From Pontibacter anaerobius (GTDB lineage: Bacteria > Bacteroidota > Bacteroidia > Cytophagales > Hymenobacteraceae): a stretch of 64,000 nt of DNA. The translations under genes were made by a program, and so were the position numbers. Where the stretch lies: assembly GCF_026241195.1 (NCBI RefSeq), contig NZ_JAPFQO010000003.1, positions 372,001-436,000 on the forward strand, given 5' to 3'. Of the stretch, positions 9,060-20,445 are shown piece by piece (within the stretch, counting starts at the first letter, position 1; each line of letters starts with the position of its first letter). The notes under the pieces were generated by a model. It worked only from the letters and a program-made list of their open reading frames with translations. It did no database searches and had not been told where the DNA came from.

Positions 9060-9144
9060 AGAGAGTTGGCGGAGTGGTCGAACGCGGCGGTCTTGAAAAC
9101 CGTTGACTGTAACAGGTCCGGGGGTTCGAATCCCTCACTCTCTG
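9060..9144 (+). tRNA. tRNA-Ser (anticodon TGA)
   Basis: A cloverleaf can be drawn: acceptor AGAGAGT at 9060-9066 pairs with ACTCTCT at 9137-9143. The anticodon stem GCGGT/ACCGT-type encloses loop CTTGAAA with anticodon TGA. A class II variable arm (TGACTGTAACAGGTC) follows, then the T arm GGGGGTTCGAATCCC. The long variable arm and TGA anticodon identify a serine tRNA reading UCA and UCG. The discriminator is G and the CCA end is not encoded. Confidence 0.93.
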
Positions 9145-9336: not shown

Positions 9337-9807
9337 CTAATAAAGGATGAGGTTGCTCCCGTTACGTTTTTGTAAGAACCCCTTCAGCGCCTTCTCCAGG
9401 TTCTCTTGTGCCTGCTCAGATAAACCTTCCTTTAACCCCCACTTATATCCTTGTATGCCAAGTATGAATGCCTGTGGCCGCACATTGTAAAGCTGCTGAC
9501 TAAGGTATACGATACTTTCAGGTGATAATTGGTGGGTTGAAAAATCGGCACCCGCATCTGGCATGCATTTACGGAATGAGTAGCCATTAGGAAGCTCTCC
9601 CTTATGTGCATCCACAAAAAGAACCCGCTTATACTTTGTTACTAGCTCTGCATCCTCCAGGTTTAGCTGGAACCGGTACAGGCAATCACCCTTAAATAGC
9701 CCCTCTTGCTCTACTCGTTCCACAAAAGCCCAGCCCAGTCCGTCGTCCTCTCGGGCAGAGTTGCCAATGCCAACCAGCAGCGATCTTTTAACTTCTTGTG
9801 CGTTCAT
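9337..9807 (-). CDS. hoxW: [NiFe]-hydrogenase maturation protease (HoxW/HycI type)
   Basis: An endopeptidase that removes the C-terminal tail of the hydrogenase large subunit after nickel insertion. The family signature GIGNSAREDDGLGWAFVE is near the N-terminus, with nickel-binding acidic residues, and LFVDAHKG and the STHQLSPES segment follow (Asp and His of the usual metal site). The start at 9807 (MNAQEVKRS) is preferred over an upstream ATG because it leaves a normal N-terminus. It overlaps the end of hoxH by 20 bases. It is last in the hox operon, and its assignment to HoxH rests on this position. Confidence 0.9.
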   Translation of the reverse strand: MNAQEVKRSLLVGIGNSAREDDGLGWAFVERVEQEGLFKGDCLYRFQLNLEDAELVTKYKRVLFVDAHKGELPNGYSFRKCMPDAGADFSTHQLSPESIVYLSQQLYNVRPQAFILGIQGYKWGLKEGLSEQAQENLEKALKGFLQKRNGSNLILY

Positions 9808-11239
9808 CGAGCAGTTTGCCTTCCGCATCAAATAAAGTAATCTTTAGCGGCATTTGCCCCAGCGCATGGGTGGCGCAGCTAAGGCAGGGGTCGAAGGTGC
9901 GGATGGCGGTTTCCACCTGGTTCAGCAGCGCTTCGGTAATTTCCGGTTTCCCGTCCAATACATTATTGGCCACCCACTTTACCGCCTGGTTCATGGGCTC
10001 ATTATTGTGCGTAGTCGAAACGATCAGGTTACACTTTGTGATCATGCCGTTATCGTCTACTTCATAGTGATGGATCAGTGTACCGCGCGGTGCTTCGATC
10101 ACGCCGATGCCCAGGTTGCGGTGCTTTCCCTGCCGCACCAACTCCCCCTTGTCCAAAGTATCATCCTCCAGCAATAACTTCATCTGCTCAGCACAATGCA
10201 GCACTTCGATCATGCGGGCCAGGTGCGTGTGCATAGAACTGTTGTTGGGCTTGTTATCCGTAAGAGATTTAAAGTACTGCCGTTCCCGTTCTGCCAGCGG
10301 ACTCGGAATATAATTGCACACGTTCAGGCGGGCCAGCGGACCAACCCGGCTCCACCCTTTCTCGCGCCCAAGGCTTTTGAGGTATGGAAATTTCAGGTAG
10401 GTCCATACTTCGGTGGCCTCACCAAAAAGCTCCTGGTAACGTGTGTCTGGTTCCTGATCTATAATGGTTTTACCCATTGCATCTATAGCCCGGAAATTAC
10501 CATCGTATAGCTCCAATGCACCGTTAGGTGTTACCAGGCCTAAATGGTTGGACGGGAAAGCAGCAAAGCTGTCCAGCCACTCCTGGTTCTTGCTGCGGTA
10601 CTCCTTCAGAAAAGCCACCATTTCCAGCGACCACCGGATCATGGTATCGACAGAAGGCACAGCCTTGCCATCTAAAAAGAACTGCCTTTCCTCTTTCCTC
10701 AGGCCCTTGTGCACACCACCCGGCGTTACTGATATGCCGTGTATCTTTTTGCCTGCAATGGCCTGTATCAGCTCCTGCCCAAACTTGCGCATCTGAATGC
10801 CCTTTAGCGCCAGCTCTTTATTGTTTACCGCCACCTCCATAATGCTCCTCTTCTCCGCCGGGGCATCGGTGCCGAAAAGCAGGTCCGGGGACGCCAGGTA
10901 AAAGAAGTGCGTGGCATGCGACTGAAACACCTGGGCATAATGTAGTAGCCTCCTGATTTTAGTAGCAGTTTCTGGAAGGTCCTGCGGGTCAACCCCCACG
11001 ATCTGATCCACGGCTTTTCCAGCCGTCAGGTGATGGCTTACCGGGCAGATGCCGCACAGGCGCTGTACTAACAGCGGCGCTTCCCAATACGGATGACCCT
11101 TCACAAAGCTCTCAAAGCCCCGGAACTCCACGATGTGGAAGCGCGCCTCCTTTACCCGGTTATTTTCGTCCAGGTGCAGCGTCACCTTTCCATGTCCCTC
11201 TACCCGTGTGATGGGATCTATTGCTATTTTCCGGTTCAT
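9788..11239 (-). CDS. hoxH: NAD-reducing [NiFe]-hydrogenase large subunit HoxH
   Basis: The catalytic subunit carrying the Ni-Fe(CN)2CO centre of a cytoplasmic H2:NAD+ oxidoreductase (group 3d). The N-terminal site RLCGICPVSHH and C-terminal site DPCLSCATH supply the four cysteine ligands. After the final His come 25 residues beginning ALGQMPL, the tail expected to be cut by HoxW. DPITRVEGHGK at the start is the family signature. An in-frame ATG at 11257 overlaps the hoxUY stop. I prefer 11239 (MNRKIAIDP), which has an AGG-rich stretch before it and leaves a 483-aa product. It sits between hoxUY and hoxW in one operon. Confidence 0.95.
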   Translation of the reverse strand: MNRKIAIDPITRVEGHGKVTLHLDENNRVKEARFHIVEFRGFESFVKGHPYWEAPLLVQRLCGICPVSHHLTAGKAVDQIVGVDPQDLPETATKIRRLLHYAQVFQSHATHFFYLASPDLLFGTDAPAEKRSIMEVAVNNKELALKGIQMRKFGQELIQAIAGKKIHGISVTPGGVHKGLRKEERQFFLDGKAVPSVDTMIRWSLEMVAFLKEYRSKNQEWLDSFAAFPSNHLGLVTPNGALELYDGNFRAIDAMGKTIIDQEPDTRYQELFGEATEVWTYLKFPYLKSLGREKGWSRVGPLARLNVCNYIPSPLAERERQYFKSLTDNKPNNSSMHTHLARMIEVLHCAEQMKLLLEDDTLDKGELVRQGKHRNLGIGVIEAPRGTLIHHYEVDDNGMITKCNLIVSTTHNNEPMNQAVKWVANNVLDGKPEITEALLNQVETAIRTFDPCLSCATHALGQMPLKITLFDAEGKLLDERTRS

Positions 11240-11249
11240 CGCTTTGCCT

Positions 11250-12533
11250 TTAGTCATACTTAAACTCCTCGTAGGGCACCTTAAAGTCTGTTCCAAAAAG
11301 CAGGTTCTGCACTACCTTGTAAATATGGTCTCCTCCCGGCGGACAACCAGGTATGAAGTAGTCGATCTTTACCACCTCGTGGCAGGGGTATACTTTGTCC
11401 AGTATCTTCGGCAGGTCCTCGTGGTGCGGAATCAGGGCTGTTGTGTCTATGGTAGGCGTTTCAAGGTATGCTTCCCGCAGCGTCTGCTCCAGCGGCATCC
11501 AGTTGCGTAGCGCCGGCAGGTTTCCGTTTATGGCACAGGCCCCTACCGATACCAGTATATCGCAACTCTCCCTGAACTTCCGGAGCACCTCCACATTCTC
11601 ATCGCTGCAGCAGCCTCCCTCGATCAATCCTACATCGCAGCGTTGCGTAAACTCTTTAATATCTGTGAAGGGAGAGCGGTTAAACGACACCACCTCGATC
11701 AAATCCAGCAGGTTAAGGTCCATGTCCAGCATCGACATGTGGCAGCCGAAGCAACCCGCCAGCGAAACGGTGGCCACCACTTTTTTCTTTACCTCGGCAG
11801 GTGATATTTCCTGTTGATGCTTTGCTTCTTTCTCAGGCAGTTTTTCAGAGATCGGCACTTTATCATACTTCCGGAAGCCGGGTGTCTCCACTGTATCTTC
11901 TTTCAATAGTATGGTTCCGACAGGGCAGATCTCCATCGCTCGGTGTGCCTGCTCGTACGATAGCTTCGCCTCCTGCTCATAGTCCACGGCTACAAAAGTC
12001 TCCTTGCCCCGCTGCTGAAAATAGAACACCGGCTTGCCCTCATCTGTAAACACATCCTCTACACAGCGCTTACACTGGATGCAGCGGTGGTTCTCCATAA
12101 TGATGTGCTTCGGCTTGTAGTCAATAACCCGGTTCGGGAAAGTATAGGGAAAGCGTGGCGTTTCCATCCCCATCTCATAACCCAGCGCCTGCAACACGCA
12201 TTTGCCGCTTTTCTCGCAAAGCGGGCAGATGTGGTTGCCTTCCGTGAACAGCATCTCCACCACGGCTTTGCGGTGGTCCAGCAGCTCCGGCGTCATCACT
12301 TCCACCTCCAATCCCTCCTTAGCATTAACCTGGCAGCCGGCGGTATACTTGCCTTTCACTTTCACGGTGCAAACGCGGCAGGTGCCCAGCGGCGGGTCCA
12401 CGTGGTCGAAGTAGCAGAGTGCAGGTATAAAAACTTCATTCGCCTGTGCCACTTTCAGCAGGTTCTCCCCTTCCCGGCATTTTATACTTTTGCCATCCAG
12501 TATGATCGTTACCTCTTTCTTACCCTTTGCCAT
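11250..12533 (-). CDS. hoxUY: Fused diaphorase gamma subunit and hydrogenase small subunit (HoxU-HoxY)
   Basis: A single 427-aa frame joins two proteins that are normally separate. Residues 1 to about 212 are HoxU: a [2Fe-2S] site at C40, C52, C55, C67; a His-ligated [4Fe-4S] site H101, C103, C106, C112; and a ferredoxin-like C151-C154-C157 with C203. Residues about 213-250 are a charged, Lys/Glu-rich linker. Residues about 251-427 are HoxY, with AGCFGCHMSMLDMD (C261, C264), GACAI near 331 and PGCPPGGD near the end, ligating the proximal [4Fe-4S] cluster. The reading frame is continuous through the linker with no stop or likely internal start signal. It overlaps hoxF by 14 bases. It would link NADH electron flow directly to the hydrogenase module. 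Confidence 0.92.
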   Translation of the reverse strand: MAKGKKEVTIILDGKSIKCREGENLLKVAQANEVFIPALCYFDHVDPPLGTCRVCTVKVKGKYTAGCQVNAKEGLEVEVMTPELLDHRKAVVEMLFTEGNHICPLCEKSGKCVLQALGYEMGMETPRFPYTFPNRVIDYKPKHIIMENHRCIQCKRCVEDVFTDEGKPVFYFQQRGKETFVAVDYEQEAKLSYEQAHRAMEICPVGTILLKEDTVETPGFRKYDKVPISEKLPEKEAKHQQEISPAEVKKKVVATVSLAGCFGCHMSMLDMDLNLLDLIEVVSFNRSPFTDIKEFTQRCDVGLIEGGCCSDENVEVLRKFRESCDILVSVGACAINGNLPALRNWMPLEQTLREAYLETPTIDTTALIPHHEDLPKILDKVYPCHEVVKIDYFIPGCPPGGDHIYKVVQNLLFGTDFKVPYEEFKYD

Positions 12534-14247
12534 GCGTTAAAATATTATATGCTTCGGTGGCCTTTTCCAAACTGAATTCACGGTTAAAATTGTCGTCGCG
12601 CACCAACTTCTTTTTGAACAGATGCGGAAACTTTTGAATCGCCTGCTCTAAGGAGTTTGGAGCTGTTTGGCCAAGTCCGCACCGGCTGTTGTGTTTAACG
12701 ATAGCCGACCATTGCAGGGCCTTCTCTACATCACCGGGTGCTGCTTTACCCTGCATCATCCGCTCAATCATGTGCAGCAGTTGTGGATTACCCGCCCGGC
12801 ACGGCGTACACAAACCGCAGGACTCATAGGTGAAGAAGCGGGAGAAGTTTTGAAGTATGGTGAACAGGTCACGCTGTTTATTGAAGATCATCACGGAGCC
12901 GCCACAACGGATGTCTTCCAGGGAAATGACCCGCTCTCTTTCCTCCACCGAGATAAGCTCACCCGAAGGGCCACTCATTTGTATATACTTTGTGTCTTCG
13001 GCTCCGCATAAATCCAGCAGTTCCCCCAAACGTATGCCCCATTCTATTTCATACAGCCCCGGGCGTTTACAGTCGCCGGCTATACTGAGCAGCTTGGTAC
13101 CGGTAGATTTTTCGGTGCCTAAGCCTTTAAACTTCTCCACTCCCAGTTCTATGATGCGGGCAGCAGCACAGAAGGTCTCCACGTTATTGATGACGGTAGG
13201 TTTACCCAGAAAGCCTTTATCCGTCGGAAAAACATTCTTGAGCCTCGGTTCTCCGCGTTTCCCCTCCAGTGACTCCAGCAAAGCCGTTTCCTCTCCGCAG
13301 ATATAAGCACCAGCCCCCAGTTGCACCCGGATATCGAATTTATACTTGCCCAACCCTTTTATACTTTGACCTAAGTAGCCTTTCTGGCGGTAGTCCTGCA
13401 GCGCAGCATTCAGCTTCGGGAGCAGCCAGGTGTACTCTGCTCGCAGGTAAATAATGCCTTCAGTTGCCCCTACAGCATACCCTGCCACGATCATGCCTTC
13501 TATCAGCAGCCCTGGCAATAGGTTGAGTAACGCCCTGTCTTTAAAGGTTCCCGGCTCTCCTTCATCTGCATTGCAGACAATGTATTTCACCGTGCCTTTT
13601 GCTTTGCGGGCAAACTCCCACTTCATCCCGGTCGGAAAAAATGCGCCTCCCCTGCCTGACAAGCCGGCTTCCTTGATCATGTCGACTACCTGGTCCGGTG
13701 AGTATTCCTTGAGCTTCTCAATAGCTTTACCCGGCTCAAAATCCCTGAGAAGTATAGTTTTGTCCTCTTCAGGTTTATACTGCACCTTTTCCTCTACCGT
13801 GTCTGCCAGCTCTGCCGGCGATTTTCCATCTTTAAGACCGTTGATGATGCGCTTTACCTTCTGTGGCGTGAGCTTTGTAAAAGGGTGAAAATTGATGAGT
13901 GCTGCCGGTTCCCTGTCGCTGAGGCCGATGCAGGAGGTTTCGAAAAAGCCGAAAGTGCCGGTCGGATCTGTTCCTCCTATGGCAGCACCTGTTTCTTTTT
14001 CAAAGGCAGCTTTTACCCTATCAAATCCATGAAACCAGGAGAGAATACTGTTGTTCAGGTAGATGGTATACTTTCCGGTTGGCTGCCTGTGAAAGAAATG
14101 GTAAAAGCCTGTTACGCCTTCCACATCTACCGGGGAGATACCAAACTCTGCCGCTGCCTGCAAAATATCTGCATCGCCCAGATAACCGCGGGCATTTTGC
14201 AGCTCCCAAAGCCTGTCCAGTAAGTATGTTCTTTCCTTTATTTTCAT
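12520..14247 (-). CDS. hoxF: Hydrogenase diaphorase flavoprotein subunit HoxF with NuoE-like N-terminal domain
   Basis: The FMN- and NAD(H)-binding subunit of the soluble hydrogenase. Residues 1 to about 150 resemble NuoE/HoxE, and the rest is NuoF-like. FMN/NAD motifs: GLSGRGGAFFPTGMKWEF, CNADEGEPGTFKDR and GAYICGEETALLESLEGKRG. The [4Fe-4S] ligands are ESCGLCTPC and the later Cys in SRCGLGQ. In the NuoE-like part only one of four expected [2Fe-2S] cysteines remains (SCIGLSDREPA), so that cluster is probably absent. Start 14247 (MKIKERTYLL) is preferred to an upstream ATG at 14274. The 575-aa length fits the Ralstonia-type HoxF. It is first in the minus-strand hox operon. Confidence 0.94.
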   Translation of the reverse strand: MKIKERTYLLDRLWELQNARGYLGDADILQAAAEFGISPVDVEGVTGFYHFFHRQPTGKYTIYLNNSILSWFHGFDRVKAAFEKETGAAIGGTDPTGTFGFFETSCIGLSDREPAALINFHPFTKLTPQKVKRIINGLKDGKSPAELADTVEEKVQYKPEEDKTILLRDFEPGKAIEKLKEYSPDQVVDMIKEAGLSGRGGAFFPTGMKWEFARKAKGTVKYIVCNADEGEPGTFKDRALLNLLPGLLIEGMIVAGYAVGATEGIIYLRAEYTWLLPKLNAALQDYRQKGYLGQSIKGLGKYKFDIRVQLGAGAYICGEETALLESLEGKRGEPRLKNVFPTDKGFLGKPTVINNVETFCAAARIIELGVEKFKGLGTEKSTGTKLLSIAGDCKRPGLYEIEWGIRLGELLDLCGAEDTKYIQMSGPSGELISVEERERVISLEDIRCGGSVMIFNKQRDLFTILQNFSRFFTYESCGLCTPCRAGNPQLLHMIERMMQGKAAPGDVEKALQWSAIVKHNSRCGLGQTAPNSLEQAIQKFPHLFKKKLVRDDNFNREFSLEKATEAYNILTHGKG

Positions 14248-14368
14248 AGCAATTATGAGTGGGCACCGGAACATTACATATCAACATTCGTTCTTATTAA
14301 CGTTATAAAAAATGTCAGGATAGTGATTACTTTCATTTATCTGACTCTCTAACACAGCCCCAAACCCC
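14248..14368. promoter_or_regulatory. Divergent promoter region between the hox and hyp operons
   Basis: This 121-base AT-rich spacer must carry both promoters. It holds the palindrome TAACGTTA at 14298-14305 inside TTATTAACGTTATAA, a possible operator. I found no full TTTG/TAnnTTTG match on either strand, so the actual promoters are not assigned. Confidence 0.45.
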
Positions 14369-14710
14369 GTGCATGAACTGTCGATTGCGCTGAGCATTGT
14401 AGAAACCGCCGAAGAAGAGGTAAGGAATGCAGGCGGCAGGCAGGTGGAAGAGATCGTGCTGGAGATCGGGGACTTGGCCGGAGTAGAACAAGATGCGCTC
14501 GACTTTGCCTGGAAAGAAGCCGTGAAGGAGACAGTGCTGGAGCAGGCAAAGTGTGTAATCGAAAATAAAGCAGGTAAAGCCAGGTGCCTTAACTGCCAGT
14601 ATGAGTTTGCCCTGACCTATATCTACGATATCTGCCCTTCCTGCAGCGATTTCAGAAAAGAGCTGATGCAGGGCAAGGAAATCAAAATCAAAAGTATAAC
14701 CATCATCTAA
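14369..14710 (+). CDS. hypA: Hydrogenase nickel-incorporation protein HypA
   Basis: A 113-aa nickel chaperone that delivers Ni to the hydrogenase large subunit with HypB. The start is GTG at 14369. It is chosen because HypA needs the N-terminal Met-His-Glu nickel site, and GTG is followed directly by CAT GAA (MHELSIALSIV). The structural zinc site is formed by two CxxC pairs, CLNC and CPSC, near residues 72-93. It is the first gene of the plus-strand hyp operon, 10 bases before hypB. Confidence 0.95.
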   Translation: MHELSIALSIVETAEEEVRNAGGRQVEEIVLEIGDLAGVEQDALDFAWKEAVKETVLEQAKCVIENKAGKARCLNCQYEFALTYIYDICPSCSDFRKELMQGKEIKIKSITII

Positions 14711-14720
14711 AACGAAAGCT

Positions 14721-15476
14721 ATGTGTACTACCTGCGGATGCAGCTCAGATGAGCCAGCCCAAATTAAAAAACCTGGTTTTCAAGCGAAATCGCTGGCTAT
14801 TGCCGGACCACCCCAAAAGCAGCTTCACTTGCTGGAGCGAGATGTGCTGCACAAAAATGACCATGATGCGGCACACAACCGTCAGCATTTTGAGAAGAAG
14901 CATGTGCTGGCCATAAATCTTGTCAGCTCGCCGGGGTCTGGTAAAACAACGCTGCTGGAAAAGACCATCGAAGCACTGAAAAACGAAGTCCTTTTTCATG
15001 TGCTGGAAGGTGACCAGCAAACGTCTCTGGACGCAAACAGAATTGAAGCTACGGGTGCACCTGTTTTACAAATTAACACAGGCAAAGGCTGTCATCTGGA
15101 CGCTTCGATGGTGCACCGCGCCCTGCACACCATGCCCCCTGCCGAACATTCTGTCCTGATGATTGAGAACGTGGGTAACCTGGTTTGCCCGGCCCTGTTT
15201 GATCTGGGTGAAAAATACCGCGTGGTGATCATCAGCGTAACTGAAGGCGAAGACAAACCCCTAAAGTACCCCAACATGTTCGAGAGTGCCGACATCTGCA
15301 TCATCAACAAAACAGACCTGCTGCCTTACGTGGAGTTTGATGTGGAGAAGGCAAAAGAGTATGCGCTGCGGGTGAACCATAAATTAACTTTTTTCGAACT
15401 GTCAGCCACGAAAGGACAAGGAATGAATAACTGGCTGAACTGGCTTAGGCAGGAGCATGCAGCCATACCTGTTTAG
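14721..15476 (+). CDS. hypB: Hydrogenase nickel-incorporation GTPase HypB
   Basis: A 251-aa SIMIBI-class GTPase that drives nickel transfer from HypA. It starts with MCTTCGCSS, the high-affinity nickel motif CxxCGC, followed by a short linker. The P-loop is SSPGSGKT at about residues 72-79; the DGDQQTS-type switch appears as EGDQQTSLDANRIE. The intersubunit metal-site segment is NTGKGCHLDASMV, and the guanine-specificity motif NKTDLLPY lies near 198. Length is usual for HypB without a His-rich stretch. It is 6 bases upstream of hypF. Confidence 0.96.
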   Translation: MCTTCGCSSDEPAQIKKPGFQAKSLAIAGPPQKQLHLLERDVLHKNDHDAAHNRQHFEKKHVLAINLVSSPGSGKTTLLEKTIEALKNEVLFHVLEGDQQTSLDANRIEATGAPVLQINTGKGCHLDASMVHRALHTMPPAEHSVLMIENVGNLVCPALFDLGEKYRVVIISVTEGEDKPLKYPNMFESADICIINKTDLLPYVEFDVEKAKEYALRVNHKLTFFELSATKGQGMNNWLNWLRQEHAAIPV

Positions 15477-15482
15477 TAAATA

Positions 15483-17813
15483 GTGCCGACCTATTCCATA
15501 CATATCGCAGGGCAAGTACAAGGAATTGGGTTCAGGCCCTATGCATATCGCCTTGCCAAAAAGTATGGCTTAAACGGCTGGGTAAGAAACCAGGCTGATG
15601 GCGTACATATGAAAGTGCAGGGACACGAGCAGCAGGTGCAAAGTTTTTACGAAGAACTAACCACACAGGCCCCTGACCTGGCCAAAATACAGTCTTCAAG
15701 TATAAAACAGGTAGAAAATAAAGTTTTTCAGGGCTTTGAGATACGGAAAGAAACAAAAGGCACTACGGCTAATTTAATGCTCACCCCAGACCTGGCTATG
15801 TGTGATGCCTGCCGCCAGGAGATGAATGATAGTAAGAACAGGCGCTTTGGCTATGCCTTTACCACCTGCACTTCCTGCGGACCCAGGTACTCTATCATGG
15901 CAAAGCTGCCTTATGAGCGGGAGCACACGACCATGGCTCCCTTTACGATGTGTGCAGCCTGCGAAAAAGAGTATCATGACCCGGAAAATCGCCGCTACTA
16001 CTCCCAAACCAACTCTTGCCCCGTCTGCCCTGTTACGCTCGGTTTGTATGATATGCAGCAGCAGTTACTATCAGATGATCAGCAGGAAAGTATAGCAGTC
16101 ACAGTAAACTTATTAGCAGCAGGTAAAATAGTAGCTGTAAAAGGTTTAGGCGGTTATTTGCTGATGGCAGATGCTACCAATGCACAAACCATTCAAACGC
16201 TGCGGGAAAGAAAACATCGTGCGGCCAAGCCTTTTGCCCTGATGTATCCTGACCTGGAAATGGCACAACAGGATGTGTTACTACAGGAAGATGAGCAAGA
16301 ACTGCTGCTTTCGTCAGTATCTCCCATAGTTTTAGCGCAGAAGAAAACAGAACCCGCTTCAGGAATAAAAGCTGATCTTATTGCTCCCCAACTAAACAAA
16401 CTTGGACTGATGCTGCCTTACACACCTTTGTTCGAATTGCTGTTAGCACAACTTCAGAAGCCGGTTATTGCAACCAGCGCCAACCGCCACGGGACCCACA
16501 TCATTTACAAAGACACAGATGCTTTTGAGCAATTAGCAAGTATAGCCGATTACATATTACTGCACAACAGAGAAATTCTGGTTTCGCAGGATGATTCTGT
16601 TGTACAGTTTACTCCCAAGCACCGCCAGCGAATCATGCTGCGCAGGTCACGTGGCTATGCTCCGTCTTTTGTAGGTGGAGCACCTGACCAACAGTCCTGG
16701 TTAGCCACAGGAGCAGACATGAAAAGCACCTTTGCCTTCACGACGCAAGGCAACAGTTACGTCAGCCAGTATTTAGGTGATCTGTCTGTTTATGATAACA
16801 CACTCAACTTCGAGCACAGCCTGCAGCATCTGAAAAAGCTTTTAGACTTCCACCCTTCCCTGCTCCTGACTGACAAGCATCCAGGTTATACTTCCGTGCG
16901 GCTTGGTAAAGAGCTGACGCAAAAGTATAAGGTGCCCCATGTGCAGGTGCAGCACCACGAAGCCCACTTTGCTGATGTATTAGCCGAAAATGAGCTGCTA
17001 AATAGTGATGAACCGGTACTGGGCGTGATCTGGGATGGCACCGGATATGGCAATGATAAGCTTATTCGGGGTGGAGAGTTTTTCCTGTATCAAGACCTGC
17101 AGATCTCTCCCTTAGCACAAATGGAACCCTACCCGCACCTGTCAGGCGACAAAATGGCGAAAGAGCCACGCCTTGCAGCCTTAGCGCTTTGCTTCGGTTT
17201 AAAAGACGCAGATATACTCATTAAGCCATACTTTACCGAAGCAGAATGGAAGTTTTACCAAAGTATACTTGATACCGATAAGTATAAACTGCAGACCACC
17301 AGCATGGGGCGTGAGTTCGATGCTGTAGCTGCACTTCTTGGCCTGTGTGGGCGCATGAGTTACGAAGGAGAAGCCGCCATGCTTTTAGAGTCTCTGGCTG
17401 CTCAGGAACCTGCTATTTATGATTTGCAGGATTATACACTTGCAGAATTTAACGGGAATGAAATACCCTTTAAAACTATACTTGGGCAGATGCTGGCAGA
17501 TGTTCGGCAAGGCGAAAACAAAGTAAGGATTGCGGCACGATTTCATGTGACGTTGGTTAAAATAGTGAGCCTGGTGGCAGAACACTACTCCATAAAAAAG
17601 CTGTCCTTTAGCGGTGGCGTATTTCAGAACAGCCTGCTCGTAGACTTGCTCATCGATAAGTTGTCACCTGAATTCAAACTATACTTTCACAAGCAGCTTT
17701 CGCCAAACGATGAATGCATTTCCTTTGGGCAACTGGCATGGATGCAACTGAAGTATAAAACAGTGGCTGCTCCAGAAGAACAGCACACAGTACATCATAC
17801 TCTAAAAATCTGA
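15483..17813 (+). CDS. hypF: Carbamoyltransferase HypF
   Basis: A 776-aa enzyme that uses carbamoyl phosphate and ATP to carbamoylate the C-terminal Cys of HypE, the first step in making the cyanide ligands of the Ni-Fe centre. Domains in order: acylphosphatase (residues 1-90, GQVQGIGFRPYAYRLA), two zinc-finger motifs (CDACRQEM, CTSCGPRY, CAACEKEY, CPVC; about 108-185), a YrdC-like nucleotide-binding domain (about 200-380, including KGLGGYLLM) and a Kae1-like domain (about 400-760, with HHEAHFADVLAE and FSGGVFQN). The start is GTG at 15483, six bases after hypB. Two bases separate it from hypC. Confidence 0.96.
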   Translation: MPTYSIHIAGQVQGIGFRPYAYRLAKKYGLNGWVRNQADGVHMKVQGHEQQVQSFYEELTTQAPDLAKIQSSSIKQVENKVFQGFEIRKETKGTTANLMLTPDLAMCDACRQEMNDSKNRRFGYAFTTCTSCGPRYSIMAKLPYEREHTTMAPFTMCAACEKEYHDPENRRYYSQTNSCPVCPVTLGLYDMQQQLLSDDQQESIAVTVNLLAAGKIVAVKGLGGYLLMADATNAQTIQTLRERKHRAAKPFALMYPDLEMAQQDVLLQEDEQELLLSSVSPIVLAQKKTEPASGIKADLIAPQLNKLGLMLPYTPLFELLLAQLQKPVIATSANRHGTHIIYKDTDAFEQLASIADYILLHNREILVSQDDSVVQFTPKHRQRIMLRRSRGYAPSFVGGAPDQQSWLATGADMKSTFAFTTQGNSYVSQYLGDLSVYDNTLNFEHSLQHLKKLLDFHPSLLLTDKHPGYTSVRLGKELTQKYKVPHVQVQHHEAHFADVLAENELLNSDEPVLGVIWDGTGYGNDKLIRGGEFFLYQDLQISPLAQMEPYPHLSGDKMAKEPRLAALALCFGLKDADILIKPYFTEAEWKFYQSILDTDKYKLQTTSMGREFDAVAALLGLCGRMSYEGEAAMLLESLAAQEPAIYDLQDYTLAEFNGNEIPFKTILGQMLADVRQGENKVRIAARFHVTLVKIVSLVAEHYSIKKLSFSGGVFQNSLLVDLLIDKLSPEFKLYFHKQLSPNDECISFGQLAWMQLKYKTVAAPEEQHTVHHTLKI

Positions 17814-17815
17814 TC

Positions 17816-18073
17816 ATGTGTTTAGGTATCCCGGCAAAACTTGATTCAATAGATGAAACAGCAGACGACTTCTTCCGCACCGGAAAGATTTCCTTTGGGG
17901 GAATTTCCAGAACCGTGAGTCTGGCCATGCTAACAGATGCAAAACCGGGTGATTATGTGCTGGTGCATGCCGGCGTGGCGCTGAGCGTTATCACAGAGCA
18001 GGAGGCAGCAACGGTTTTTGAATACCTGAAAATGTCTGGGGAACTGGATGAAGAAGGGTTGCCGGATACGTAG
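17816..18073 (+). CDS. hypC: Hydrogenase assembly chaperone HypC
   Basis: An 85-aa HypC/HupF chaperone. It starts with the invariant MCLGIPAKL, whose Cys2 binds the Fe(CN)2CO precursor together with HypD and HoxH. The barrel signature GISRTVSLAML and GDYVLVHAGVALSVI follow. It begins two bases after hypF. It is separated from hypD by a 240-base spacer filled with hairpins, which is unusual inside a hyp operon. Confidence 0.95.
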   Translation: MCLGIPAKLDSIDETADDFFRTGKISFGGISRTVSLAMLTDAKPGDYVLVHAGVALSVITEQEAATVFEYLKMSGELDEEGLPDT

Positions 18074-18090
18074 TGTATTTATATTGCTGA

Positions 18091-18204
18091 TACGGACTTC
18101 ATAGTCCGAATCCTATCTGAAGCGGATTTCCTAATCCGCATTAAACGGAACACGGGGATTAGGAAATCCCCATCAGTTTGCTTCCGGACTGGGAAGTCCG
18201 GAAG
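18091..18204. repeat. Array of four tetraloop hairpins between hypC and hypD (REP-like)
   Basis: Four perfect palindromes with four-base loops follow one another: CGGACT-TCAT-AGTCCG at 18093-18108, GCGGATT-TCCT-AATCCGC at 18122-18139, GGGGATT-AGGA-AATCCCC at 18154-18171, and CTTCCGGACT-GGGA-AGTCCGGAAG at 18181-18204. The second and third are also reverse complements of each other in their cores, and the first and fourth share the CGGACT arm, so larger nested folds are possible. The element resembles the hairpin cores of the 1798-2174 repeat. It could affect hypD-hypE expression by transcript stability or attenuation. Confidence 0.8.
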
Positions 18205-18315
18205 AGCAATAAAAAGAGCAACAGAATTGGGTCAGAGGCCCAAGCTATAGTAGACATGGGTCGCAGATACAGAACGAGGACATTCTCGCCACTATAATTA
18301 GACAAGTATTTGAAC

Positions 18316-19422
18316 ATGAAATACATCTCTGAATACCGAAACGCTGGGGTGGTAAAGAAGCTTTTAGCAGAAATAGAAGCTACTGTTACCCGTGCCTGGA
18401 TGCTGATGGAAGTGTGCGGAGGACAAACGCACAGTTTGGTGAAAAACGGTATTCTGAACATGCTGCCTGATAAAATTACGATGGTGCATGGCCCGGGCTG
18501 CCCTGTTTGTGTCACGCCAAAGTCCATGATCGATCAGGCAGTTGCGCTTGCCCTAAGGCAGGATGTGATTATGTGCTCATTCGGGGATATGGTGCGGGTG
18601 CCGGGCAGCAGCAAAAGCCTGATGCAGGCCCGGTCTGAAGGCGGCAACTTACGTGTAGTATACTCTCCCTTGGATGCAATAAAAATAGCCAGAGAAAACC
18701 CTGATAAAGAGGTGATATTCTTTGCTGTCGGTTTTGAAACAACTGCCCCTGCCAATGCGCTGGCGGTGCTGCAGGCGGCAAAACTTAACCTTAACAACTT
18801 TTCTGTGCTTGTCTCGCATGTACTGGTGCCGCCTGCCATGGAAGCCATACTTTCTGATGAGTTTAACACCATCAATGGCTTTCTGGGTGCCGGTCATGTA
18901 TGCTCTGTGATGGGCCTTCACGAGTACTACCCACTGGCAGAAAAGTATAAGATACCTATCGTGGTTACAGGCTTCGAACCCGTTGATTTGTTAGAGGGAA
19001 TTCTAATGGCTGTACGACAATTGGAGGCAGGCATAGCCACAGTAGAAAACCAGTATGCGCGGGTAGTGCGGAACACTGGAAACCTGCAGGCACAGGCGGT
19101 GATACAGGAAGTTTTTAAAGTGGCAGACCGGGAATGGCGCGGCATCGGGGTGATACCACAAAGCGGCTATAAAGTGCGGGAAAAGTACCAGCTTTTTGAT
19201 GCCGAGCATAAATTCAGCGAAACAAAGAATATTAAAGTTCAGGAACTGGATGCAGGATGTATAGCCGGTGAAATATTGCGGGGCATCAAAAAGCCCGTGC
19301 AATGCCCGCATTTCGGCAAAGGCTGCACTCCTTTAAACCCTTTAGGCGCACCAATGGTATCATCAGAAGGTGCTTGCGCGGCTTATTTTCACTTTTCCCA
19401 AGCCTATGAAACAACATCCTAA
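18316..19422 (+). CDS. hypD: Hydrogenase Fe(CN)2CO assembly protein HypD
   Basis: A [4Fe-4S] scaffold protein that, with HypC, assembles the Fe(CN)2CO group. Conserved cysteine motifs are [20 protein letters not shown] and the C-terminal [13 protein letters not shown] and [12 protein letters not shown]. The [10 protein letters not shown] segment near residue 138 is also typical. The frame opens with TTG at 18310, but ATG 18316 (MKYISEYRN) is the likely start, giving 368 residues. It follows the hairpin array and lies three bases before hypE. Confidence 0.96.
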
Positions 19423-19425
19423 CTT

Positions 19426-20445
19426 ATGGAAAAAACCACAGAACGTTTTACCATAGCCCATGGCAGCGGCGGTGAGCTGACAAATCAGCTACTGGAAAGT
19501 GAGACCTTTGAGATCCTGCAGAATGAGTACCTGCAAAAAAAGCACGATGGAGCAGTATTCGAACTATCGGGCAAACTCGCTTTTACTACTGACAGCTATG
19601 TGGTTTCCCCCCTGTTCTTTCCGGGCGGCAACATTGGTGACCTGGCTGTAAACGGTACGGTAAACGATCTGGCTATGTGTGGGGCAAGAGCGAAGTATCT
19701 CTCCCTTAGTTTTATTCTGGAAGAAGGGTTCAGCATTGATGAGTTTCATACTATATTATTGTCTATCCGAAAAGCAGCTGACAAGGCAGATGTACTGATC
19801 GTAACCGGTGATACCAAAGTAGTGGAACGCGGCAAAGGAGACAAGATCTTCATCAACACTTCCGGTATCGGTCAGGTACACCCTAACGCAAACATTGATG
19901 CTGCTAACATCGAAATTGGCGATAAGATCCTGATCAGCGGCCCGGTTGCCAGCCATGGTATGGCTATTATGTCGGTGCGGGAAGGCCTGGAGTTTGAATC
20001 GCAGATACGCAGCGACACAGCCAGCGTGCAGGAACAGGTTATGACGTTACTGGATGAGTTTGGGCAGGATATTCATTTCCTGCGGGACCCAACACGTGGG
20101 GGTGTCGCTACTGTTCTCAATGAAATAGCCAGGCAAATGCATTTGGGAATATCCGTTGATGAGCGAAAGATTCCAGTAAGGGAGCAGGTGCGGTCGGCTT
20201 GTGAAATGCTGGGCATTGATCCGCTCTATGTGGCTAATGAAGGAACATTTCTGGTATGGGTTAAGGCAGAGGCAAGCGAAATGGCTTTGGAAAAATTACA
20301 GGCTGTTCTACCAACAGGACAACAGGCAGCTGTCATTGGGTCTGTTGTTGCAGAGCATCCCGGGCAAGTAATTATACGGACTGAAATTGGAGGCCGAAGA
20401 GTGGTCGCAATGCCTTCCGGGGAGCAGTTGCCCAGAATATGTTAA
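19426..20445 (+). CDS. hypE: Hydrogenase thiocyanate-forming dehydratase HypE
   Basis: A 339-aa PurM/SelD-like ATPase that dehydrates the HypF-made thiocarboxamide on its own C-terminal cysteine to thiocyanate, the cyanide donor. AHGSGGELTNQLL at the start, GNIGDLAVNGTVNDLAM, TGDTKVVERGKGD and RDPTRGGVATVLNE are the family motifs. The protein ends PRIC, the essential terminal Cys. It closes the hypABFCDE operon. No clear terminator is visible downstream. Confidence 0.96.
   Translation: MEKTTERFTIAHGSGGELTNQLLESETFEILQNEYLQKKHDGAVFELSGKLAFTTDSYVVSPLFFPGGNIGDLAVNGTVNDLAMCGARAKYLSLSFILEEGFSIDEFHTILLSIRKAADKADVLIVTGDTKVVERGKGDKIFINTSGIGQVHPNANIDAANIEIGDKILISGPVASHGMAIMSVREGLEFESQIRSDTASVQEQVMTLLDEFGQDIHFLRDPTRGGVATVLNEIARQMHLGISVDERKIPVREQVRSACEMLGIDPLYVANEGTFLVWVKAEASEMALEKLQAVLPTGQQAAVIGSVVAEHPGQVIIRTEIGGRRVVAMPSGEQLPRIC

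Follow-up and report, generated by a model that had tools for sequence, protein, structure and literature searches.

Two known enzymes are among the closest to the hydrogenase considered here. The first is the soluble hydrogenase (SH) of Cupriavidus necator H16 (HoxFUYH-I2, located on pHG1), in which hoxU and hoxY are separate genes with a 4-nt overlap and a HoxI subunit is present. The second is the HoxFUYH enzyme of Hydrogenophilus thermoluteolus (PDB entries 5xf9 and 5xfa), which consists of four separate chains. Several Hox and SH enzymes used for H2-driven NADH recycling have been recorded to fall apart into modules. The SH of R. opacus reportedly separates with ease into two moieties, detachment is reported to lower the activity of C. 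necator HoxHY (PMC3189943), and the Synechocystis Hox enzyme is reported to part readily into HoxEFU and HoxYH (PMC7363133). Here, we analysed a stretch of 64,000 nucleotides from Pontibacter anaerobius (positions 372,001 to 436,000 of contig NZ_JAPFQO010000003.1; referred to below as the window), in which HoxU and HoxY are encoded by one frame, hoxUY. From sequence comparisons, we consider it quite probable that this frame belongs to an SH-type enzyme, that it goes back to one event in which adjoining hoxU and hoxY genes were fused, and that it has been kept as a tether between the enzyme modules. The fused frame and its parts are as follows.

11250..12533, minus strand: hoxUY, fused HoxU-HoxY of 427 amino acids; a single open reading frame with Pfam domains and matches to 5xf9 chains
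11862..12518, minus strand: HoxU domain, approximately residues 6-224, with one [2Fe-2S] and two [4Fe-4S] sites (Pfam, phmmer, ligand alignment)
11778..11861, minus strand: inter-module linker, residues 225-252 (28 amino acids); length-conserved, sequence-variable and predicted to be disordered
11250..11777, minus strand: HoxY domain, residues 253-427 plus the stop codon, with the proximal [4Fe-4S] site (Pfam, phmmer, ligand alignment)

The hoxUY frame starts with ATG, ends with TAA and has no internal stops in the open reading frame list of the window. Four Pfam domains were each found above their curated cut-offs, namely Fer2_4 (residues 6-79), NADH-G_4Fe-4S_3 (88-127), Fer4_Nqo3 (144-207) and Oxidored_q6 (261-410). 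When the protein was compared with PDB sequences by phmmer, residues 9-235 matched HoxU of the H. thermoluteolus NAD-reducing hydrogenase (5xf9_B) and residues 249-427 matched its HoxY (5xf9_C, E-value 4e-52). The top NCBIfam match of the HoxU part was HoxU NF005745, but its score remained below the curated cut-off. With Met1 as residue 1, the cluster ligands are C40/C52/C55/C67, H101/C103/C106/C112 and C151/C154/C157/C203 in HoxU, and C261/C264/C333/C397 in HoxY. All 16 ligands (12 of HoxU and 4 of HoxY) are invariant in 27 aligned fused proteins. A sequence-only reading of this DNA had proposed that one 427-residue frame carries the ligand sets of two normally separate proteins. The open reading frame, Pfam, phmmer and the ligand alignment agree on the former point, and the latter is borne out by the separate genes of distant homologues, including those of C. 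necator and Hydrogenophilus. A weaker second match in the same genome is a HoxU/NuoG-like 2Fe-2S protein encoded by a 347-residue frame (L002; G000:C3:35783-36421), which shows 33% identity across residues 8-209 of HoxUY.

These features lead us to infer a cytoplasmic enzyme, namely a bidirectional, NAD-linked [NiFe] hydrogenase of the C. necator SH type (group 3d). The group 3d features present are the NiFe motifs of HoxH, the proximal [4Fe-4S] site of HoxY, the NuoG-type clusters of HoxU and the flavin mononucleotide (FMN)/NAD diaphorase of HoxF; a usual, though not strictly defining, trait that is lacking is the occurrence of HoxU and HoxY as separate polypeptides. Membership in the C. necator-type subfamily is supported by the tree position described below. 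The HoxI subunit of C. necator, which not all of its relatives possess, has no homologue in any of the fused loci listed, and the H. pseudoflava SH is likewise devoid of HoxI (PMC12809855). The Pontibacter locus resembles that of C. necator in its F-U-Y-H-W order with hyp genes, in an identity of about 50% over HoxU plus HoxY, and in a HoxE-like domain of HoxF that has no full [2Fe-2S] set. For HoxF, HoxH and HoxY, the best relatives with a solved structure are those of H. thermoluteolus, whose chains also match both halves of HoxUY in fold. In the split hydrogenases found in Bacteroidales, Spirochaetota, Acidobacteriota and Planctomycetota, the operon is homologous, HoxY is 53-62% identical and the abutting genes are often in the same frame, but a stop codon lies between U and Y. 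The electron-bifurcating NiFe-HydABCSL of Acetomicrobium mobile (7t2r/7t30) is similar in that the N-terminal part of HydA is HoxU-like, while HydS is the counterpart of HoxY and HydL that of HoxH. Indeed, the HoxU part of the fusion matched 7t2r_A and 5xf9_B about equally in the PDB sequence comparison. However, the small subunit of the A. mobile enzyme is separate and its HydA is longer, with further clusters. Neither the extra C-terminal Fe-S domain of HydB nor the long HydA of such an enzyme was found in the window, where no Pfam domain follows NADH_4Fe-4S in HoxF, and HoxU is followed directly by the linker and HoxY. The [FeFe]-hydrogenase polyprotein of Nyctotherus ovalis also combines a hydrogenase with parts of an NADH module in one chain (PMC2216082), but it represents an unrelated fusion event. 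A literature search that reached few subscription journals turned up no description of a naturally occurring HoxU–HoxY fusion. The enzyme type is known, while the joined architecture appears to be undescribed.

The distribution of the fusion was examined in related genomes, as the sequence-only reading had suggested. Close relatives were all found to be fused, and split genes were encountered only in more distant ones. Open fused frames without stops are present in Pontibacter ruber (85% identity, 429 residues) and Botryobacter ruber (78%, 430 residues). A contig scan of the genome collection gave 221 hits, of which the best 80 were analysed, so that fusions in other phyla may exist beyond these. 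Among these 80 loci, those nearest to the query are fused; they come from P. ruber, B. ruber and three metagenome-assembled genomes of Bacteroidota/Saprospiraceae. In all others, hoxU and hoxY are separate neighbouring genes, which commonly share a frame and lie only one stop or a few codons apart. Whole-genome searches revealed more fused copies in families f10, f19, f26, f41, f43 and f78, with frames of 424-450 residues that are open wherever the contig is complete. Altogether, fused copies were counted in about 30 genomes, which represent at least 7 Bacteroidota families. Split genes occur in families f75, f129, f81, f49 and others of the collection, and separate, usually abutting hoxU and hoxY genes were observed in Bacteroidales, Spirochaetota, Acidobacteriota, Planctomycetota, C. 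necator and Hydrogenophilus. The enzyme itself is patchily distributed, being present in only 3 of 200 sampled genomes of the window organism's own family. The HoxU proteins encoded by split genes (L011-L085 and L145-L151) mostly end in a conserved tail resembling PIGxRKxDxxPIGSDIE, and a PIGSDIE-like tail is kept in most of the aforementioned split Bacteroidales, Spirochaetota, Acidobacteriota and Planctomycetota enzymes. Neither C. necator HoxU nor any member of the fused clade has the PIGSDIE end, whose loss thus preceded or accompanied the fusion.

The trees mostly point to one origin of the fusion. In the tree of HoxU plus HoxY (61 rows), one change suffices to explain the fusion, 90% of the bootstrap trees have a single origin, and the C. 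necator SH is the sister of the fused clade with a support of 100/99. The four-gene tree (HoxF, HoxU, HoxY and HoxH), to which H. thermoluteolus was added, likewise requires one change; its values in the Shimodaira-Hasegawa-like approximate likelihood ratio test are 100 for the fused clade itself and 99 once C. necator is included. The tree of HoxU alone agrees with the fused clade (96). Several independent fusions are thus not favoured. Every outgroup is split, and the most economical history is therefore that abutting hoxU and hoxY genes were joined only once. A later re-splitting in the beta-proteobacterial line is a residual possibility; no reversion to split genes was seen in the four-gene tree. 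In this history, the fusion would have spread vertically within the Bacteroidota and probably also laterally. The fused enzymes of families f41 and f43, which belong to another class (L103-L107 and L138-L144), were observed to group with those of f19, a family of the window organism's order. This grouping runs against the kinship labels and suggests lateral transfer inside the Bacteroidota.

The linker differs markedly from the two domains that it joins. Its bounds were set from the last conserved HoxU motif to the first HoxY strand, and in 27 fused copies it measures 23-30 residues (mean 26, standard deviation 1.8). Column identity among the fused copies is 32% in the linker versus 74% and 78% in the domains, and in three close relatives the dN/dS ratio is 0.43-0.60 in the linker versus 0.04-0.12 in the domains. 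Both domains are under strong purifying selection. The sequence-only reading had described the linker as rich in Lys and Glu; this is correct for the window copy but does not extend to the family, where the linkers are rich in Lys (23%) and usually carry a net positive charge. An AlphaFold2 model of HoxUY, built on an alignment from which four rows from plasmid records were left out, has a mean predicted local distance difference test (pLDDT) value of 80 and a predicted template modelling score (pTM) of 0.54, with pLDDT values below 55 at approximately residues 231-250. When this model was used in a fold search, the HoxU and HoxY chains of 5xf9 were within the top three with TM-scores of 0.84 and 0.73 (target length), and none of the solved chains listed aligned well across both parts. 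The profile of the linker is typical of a flexible tether whose length is constrained.

In the enzyme as we picture it by homology, H2 would be oxidised at the NiFe site in HoxH, and electrons would pass from the HoxY cluster to the HoxU clusters inside the same chain, and from there via the [4Fe-4S] cluster and FMN of HoxF to NAD+. Abutting hoxU and hoxY genes would have been joined once in the SH lineage of the Bacteroidota and retained thereafter. The resulting HoxUY chain, which presumably stays uncleaved, would set the U:Y stoichiometry to 1:1, and its linker of 23-30 residues would most likely stop the HoxFU and HoxYH modules from parting. Tethering is favoured as the role of the fusion because the covalent link between HoxU and HoxY joins the very modules that part in relatives. 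The idea that the fusion fixes the module interface covalently can thus be kept as far as a covalent tether is concerned, but not in the sense of a fixed interface geometry. The conserved length, variable sequence and predicted disorder of the linker indicate that it tethers the modules rather than locks them. Several observations weigh against this view. The pTM of 0.54 is too low to set the orientation of the HoxU and HoxY domains. The tree of HoxY alone draws the long-branched C. necator sequence inside the fused clade, so that two changes are needed; this is attributable to the long C. necator branch, and holding the fused rows as one clade was not rejected by the approximately unbiased test (p-AU 0.415). 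Furthermore, the SH core of C. necator is already stable without a fusion (PMC3189943). Lastly, many relatives function unfused, and the benefit of the fusion could therefore be slight or neutral.

The main rival to retention for tethering is neutral retention, in which the stop codon between abutting genes was lost by chance and the linker is merely tolerated without functional change. It concerns the benefit of the fusion and not its identity, and overlaps with the explanation that we prefer. Split relatives have hoxU and hoxY in the same frame and as little as one stop apart, which would have made the fusion easy, and the linker evolves fast. On the other hand, the fusion has been retained across a deep clade of at least 7 families with no reversion in the four-gene tree, and the linker length is narrowly constrained (standard deviation of 1.8 residues). 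Retention and narrow length are nevertheless compatible with neutrality, because the observed length may be the minimum needed. We therefore take neutral retention seriously as a possibility, albeit not as the probable one. An error of sequencing or assembly that joined two frames has practically no likelihood, since the same open fusion is shared by about 30 independently assembled genomes, those of P. ruber and B. ruber among them.

Two further explanations accept the fused frame but question whether one chain is the working product. A polyprotein might be translated and then cut in the exposed Lys-rich linker, so that the working HoxU and HoxY are separate and the fusion serves stoichiometry or co-folding only. 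The linker is indeed predicted to be disordered and is Lys-rich, as is typical of protease-sensitive segments. However, no conserved cleavage motif is visible in the 27 linkers, of which the length alone is conserved, and HoxW, the sole protease recognised among the operon genes, cuts HoxH as judged by homology. This makes cleavage an unlikely explanation. Even less credit can be given to internal initiation in the linker, by which some separate HoxY would be made beside the fusion. GTG codons are present where the HoxY domain begins in the window copy, and ATG, GTG or TTG codons occur in or near the linker in 15 of the 27 fused copies, but their positions are not conserved. The remaining 12 copies lack such codons in this region, which speaks against a second product as a general feature.

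If the fusion is a tether, this natural and retained link of defined length could readily be used to test whether enzyme stability benefits from covalent coupling, and it may serve as a template for engineering. The HoxUY fusion is also a clean marker for one soluble-hydrogenase lineage in the Bacteroidota, a phylum in which this enzyme has been little studied. A bolder proposal, which we regard as doubtful, is that the fused clade forms a distinct functional class of Bacteroidota soluble hydrogenases with modules obligately coupled by the tether. If so, this would represent an H2:NAD+ enzyme that is robust to dilution, salt and O2, without the free HoxFU and HoxYH activities of other Hox systems.

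The hoxUY gene is part of an operon with the order hoxF-hoxUY-hoxH-hoxW on the minus strand, and a hypABFCDE cluster is transcribed divergently from 14369 to 20445. The other genes of these clusters are listed below.

9337..9831, minus strand: hoxW-like hydrogenase maturation endopeptidase (TIGR00072 above cut-off); adjoins hoxH in fused loci
9788..11257, minus strand: hoxH, [NiFe] large subunit with RLCGICPVSHH and DPCLSCATH motifs
12520..14274, minus strand: hoxF, 584 amino acids, with HoxE/NuoE-like N-terminal, FMN/NAD and C-terminal [4Fe-4S] domains
14369..14710, plus strand: hypA-like maturation gene, divergent (sequence and homology to loci of the same order)
14721..15476, plus strand: hypB-like gene of the divergent hyp cluster
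15483..17813, plus strand: hypF-like gene of the same cluster
17816..18073, plus strand: hypC-like gene of the same cluster
18310..19422, plus strand: hypD-like gene of the same cluster
19426..20445, plus strand: hypE-like gene of the same cluster

All fused loci that cover the region completely have the F-UY-H-W order, and hyp genes are mostly present. The 3' end of hoxF overlaps the start of hoxUY by 14 nt, and the ATG of hoxH (11257) overlaps the end of hoxUY by 8 nt. Both NiFe-binding CxxC motifs of HoxH align to 5xf9_D (E-value 7e-154), and in a PF00374 search of the whole genome this HoxH was the sole match. HoxF contains the Pfam domains Complex1_51K and NADH_4Fe-4S and matches 5xf9_A with an E-value of 3e-109. 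Its N-terminal NuoE/HoxE-like domain has kept 1 of the usual 4 [2Fe-2S] cysteines. This loss is not a special trait of the Pontibacter enzyme, as hardly any of the aligned SH-type HoxF proteins has the full ligand set, whether from split or fused loci, and that of C. necator lacks it too. A tRNA gene is located just downstream of the hox operon (9060-9144, plus strand; Rfam RF00005, 57.9 bits), and may possibly represent an insertion point for this patchily distributed cluster.
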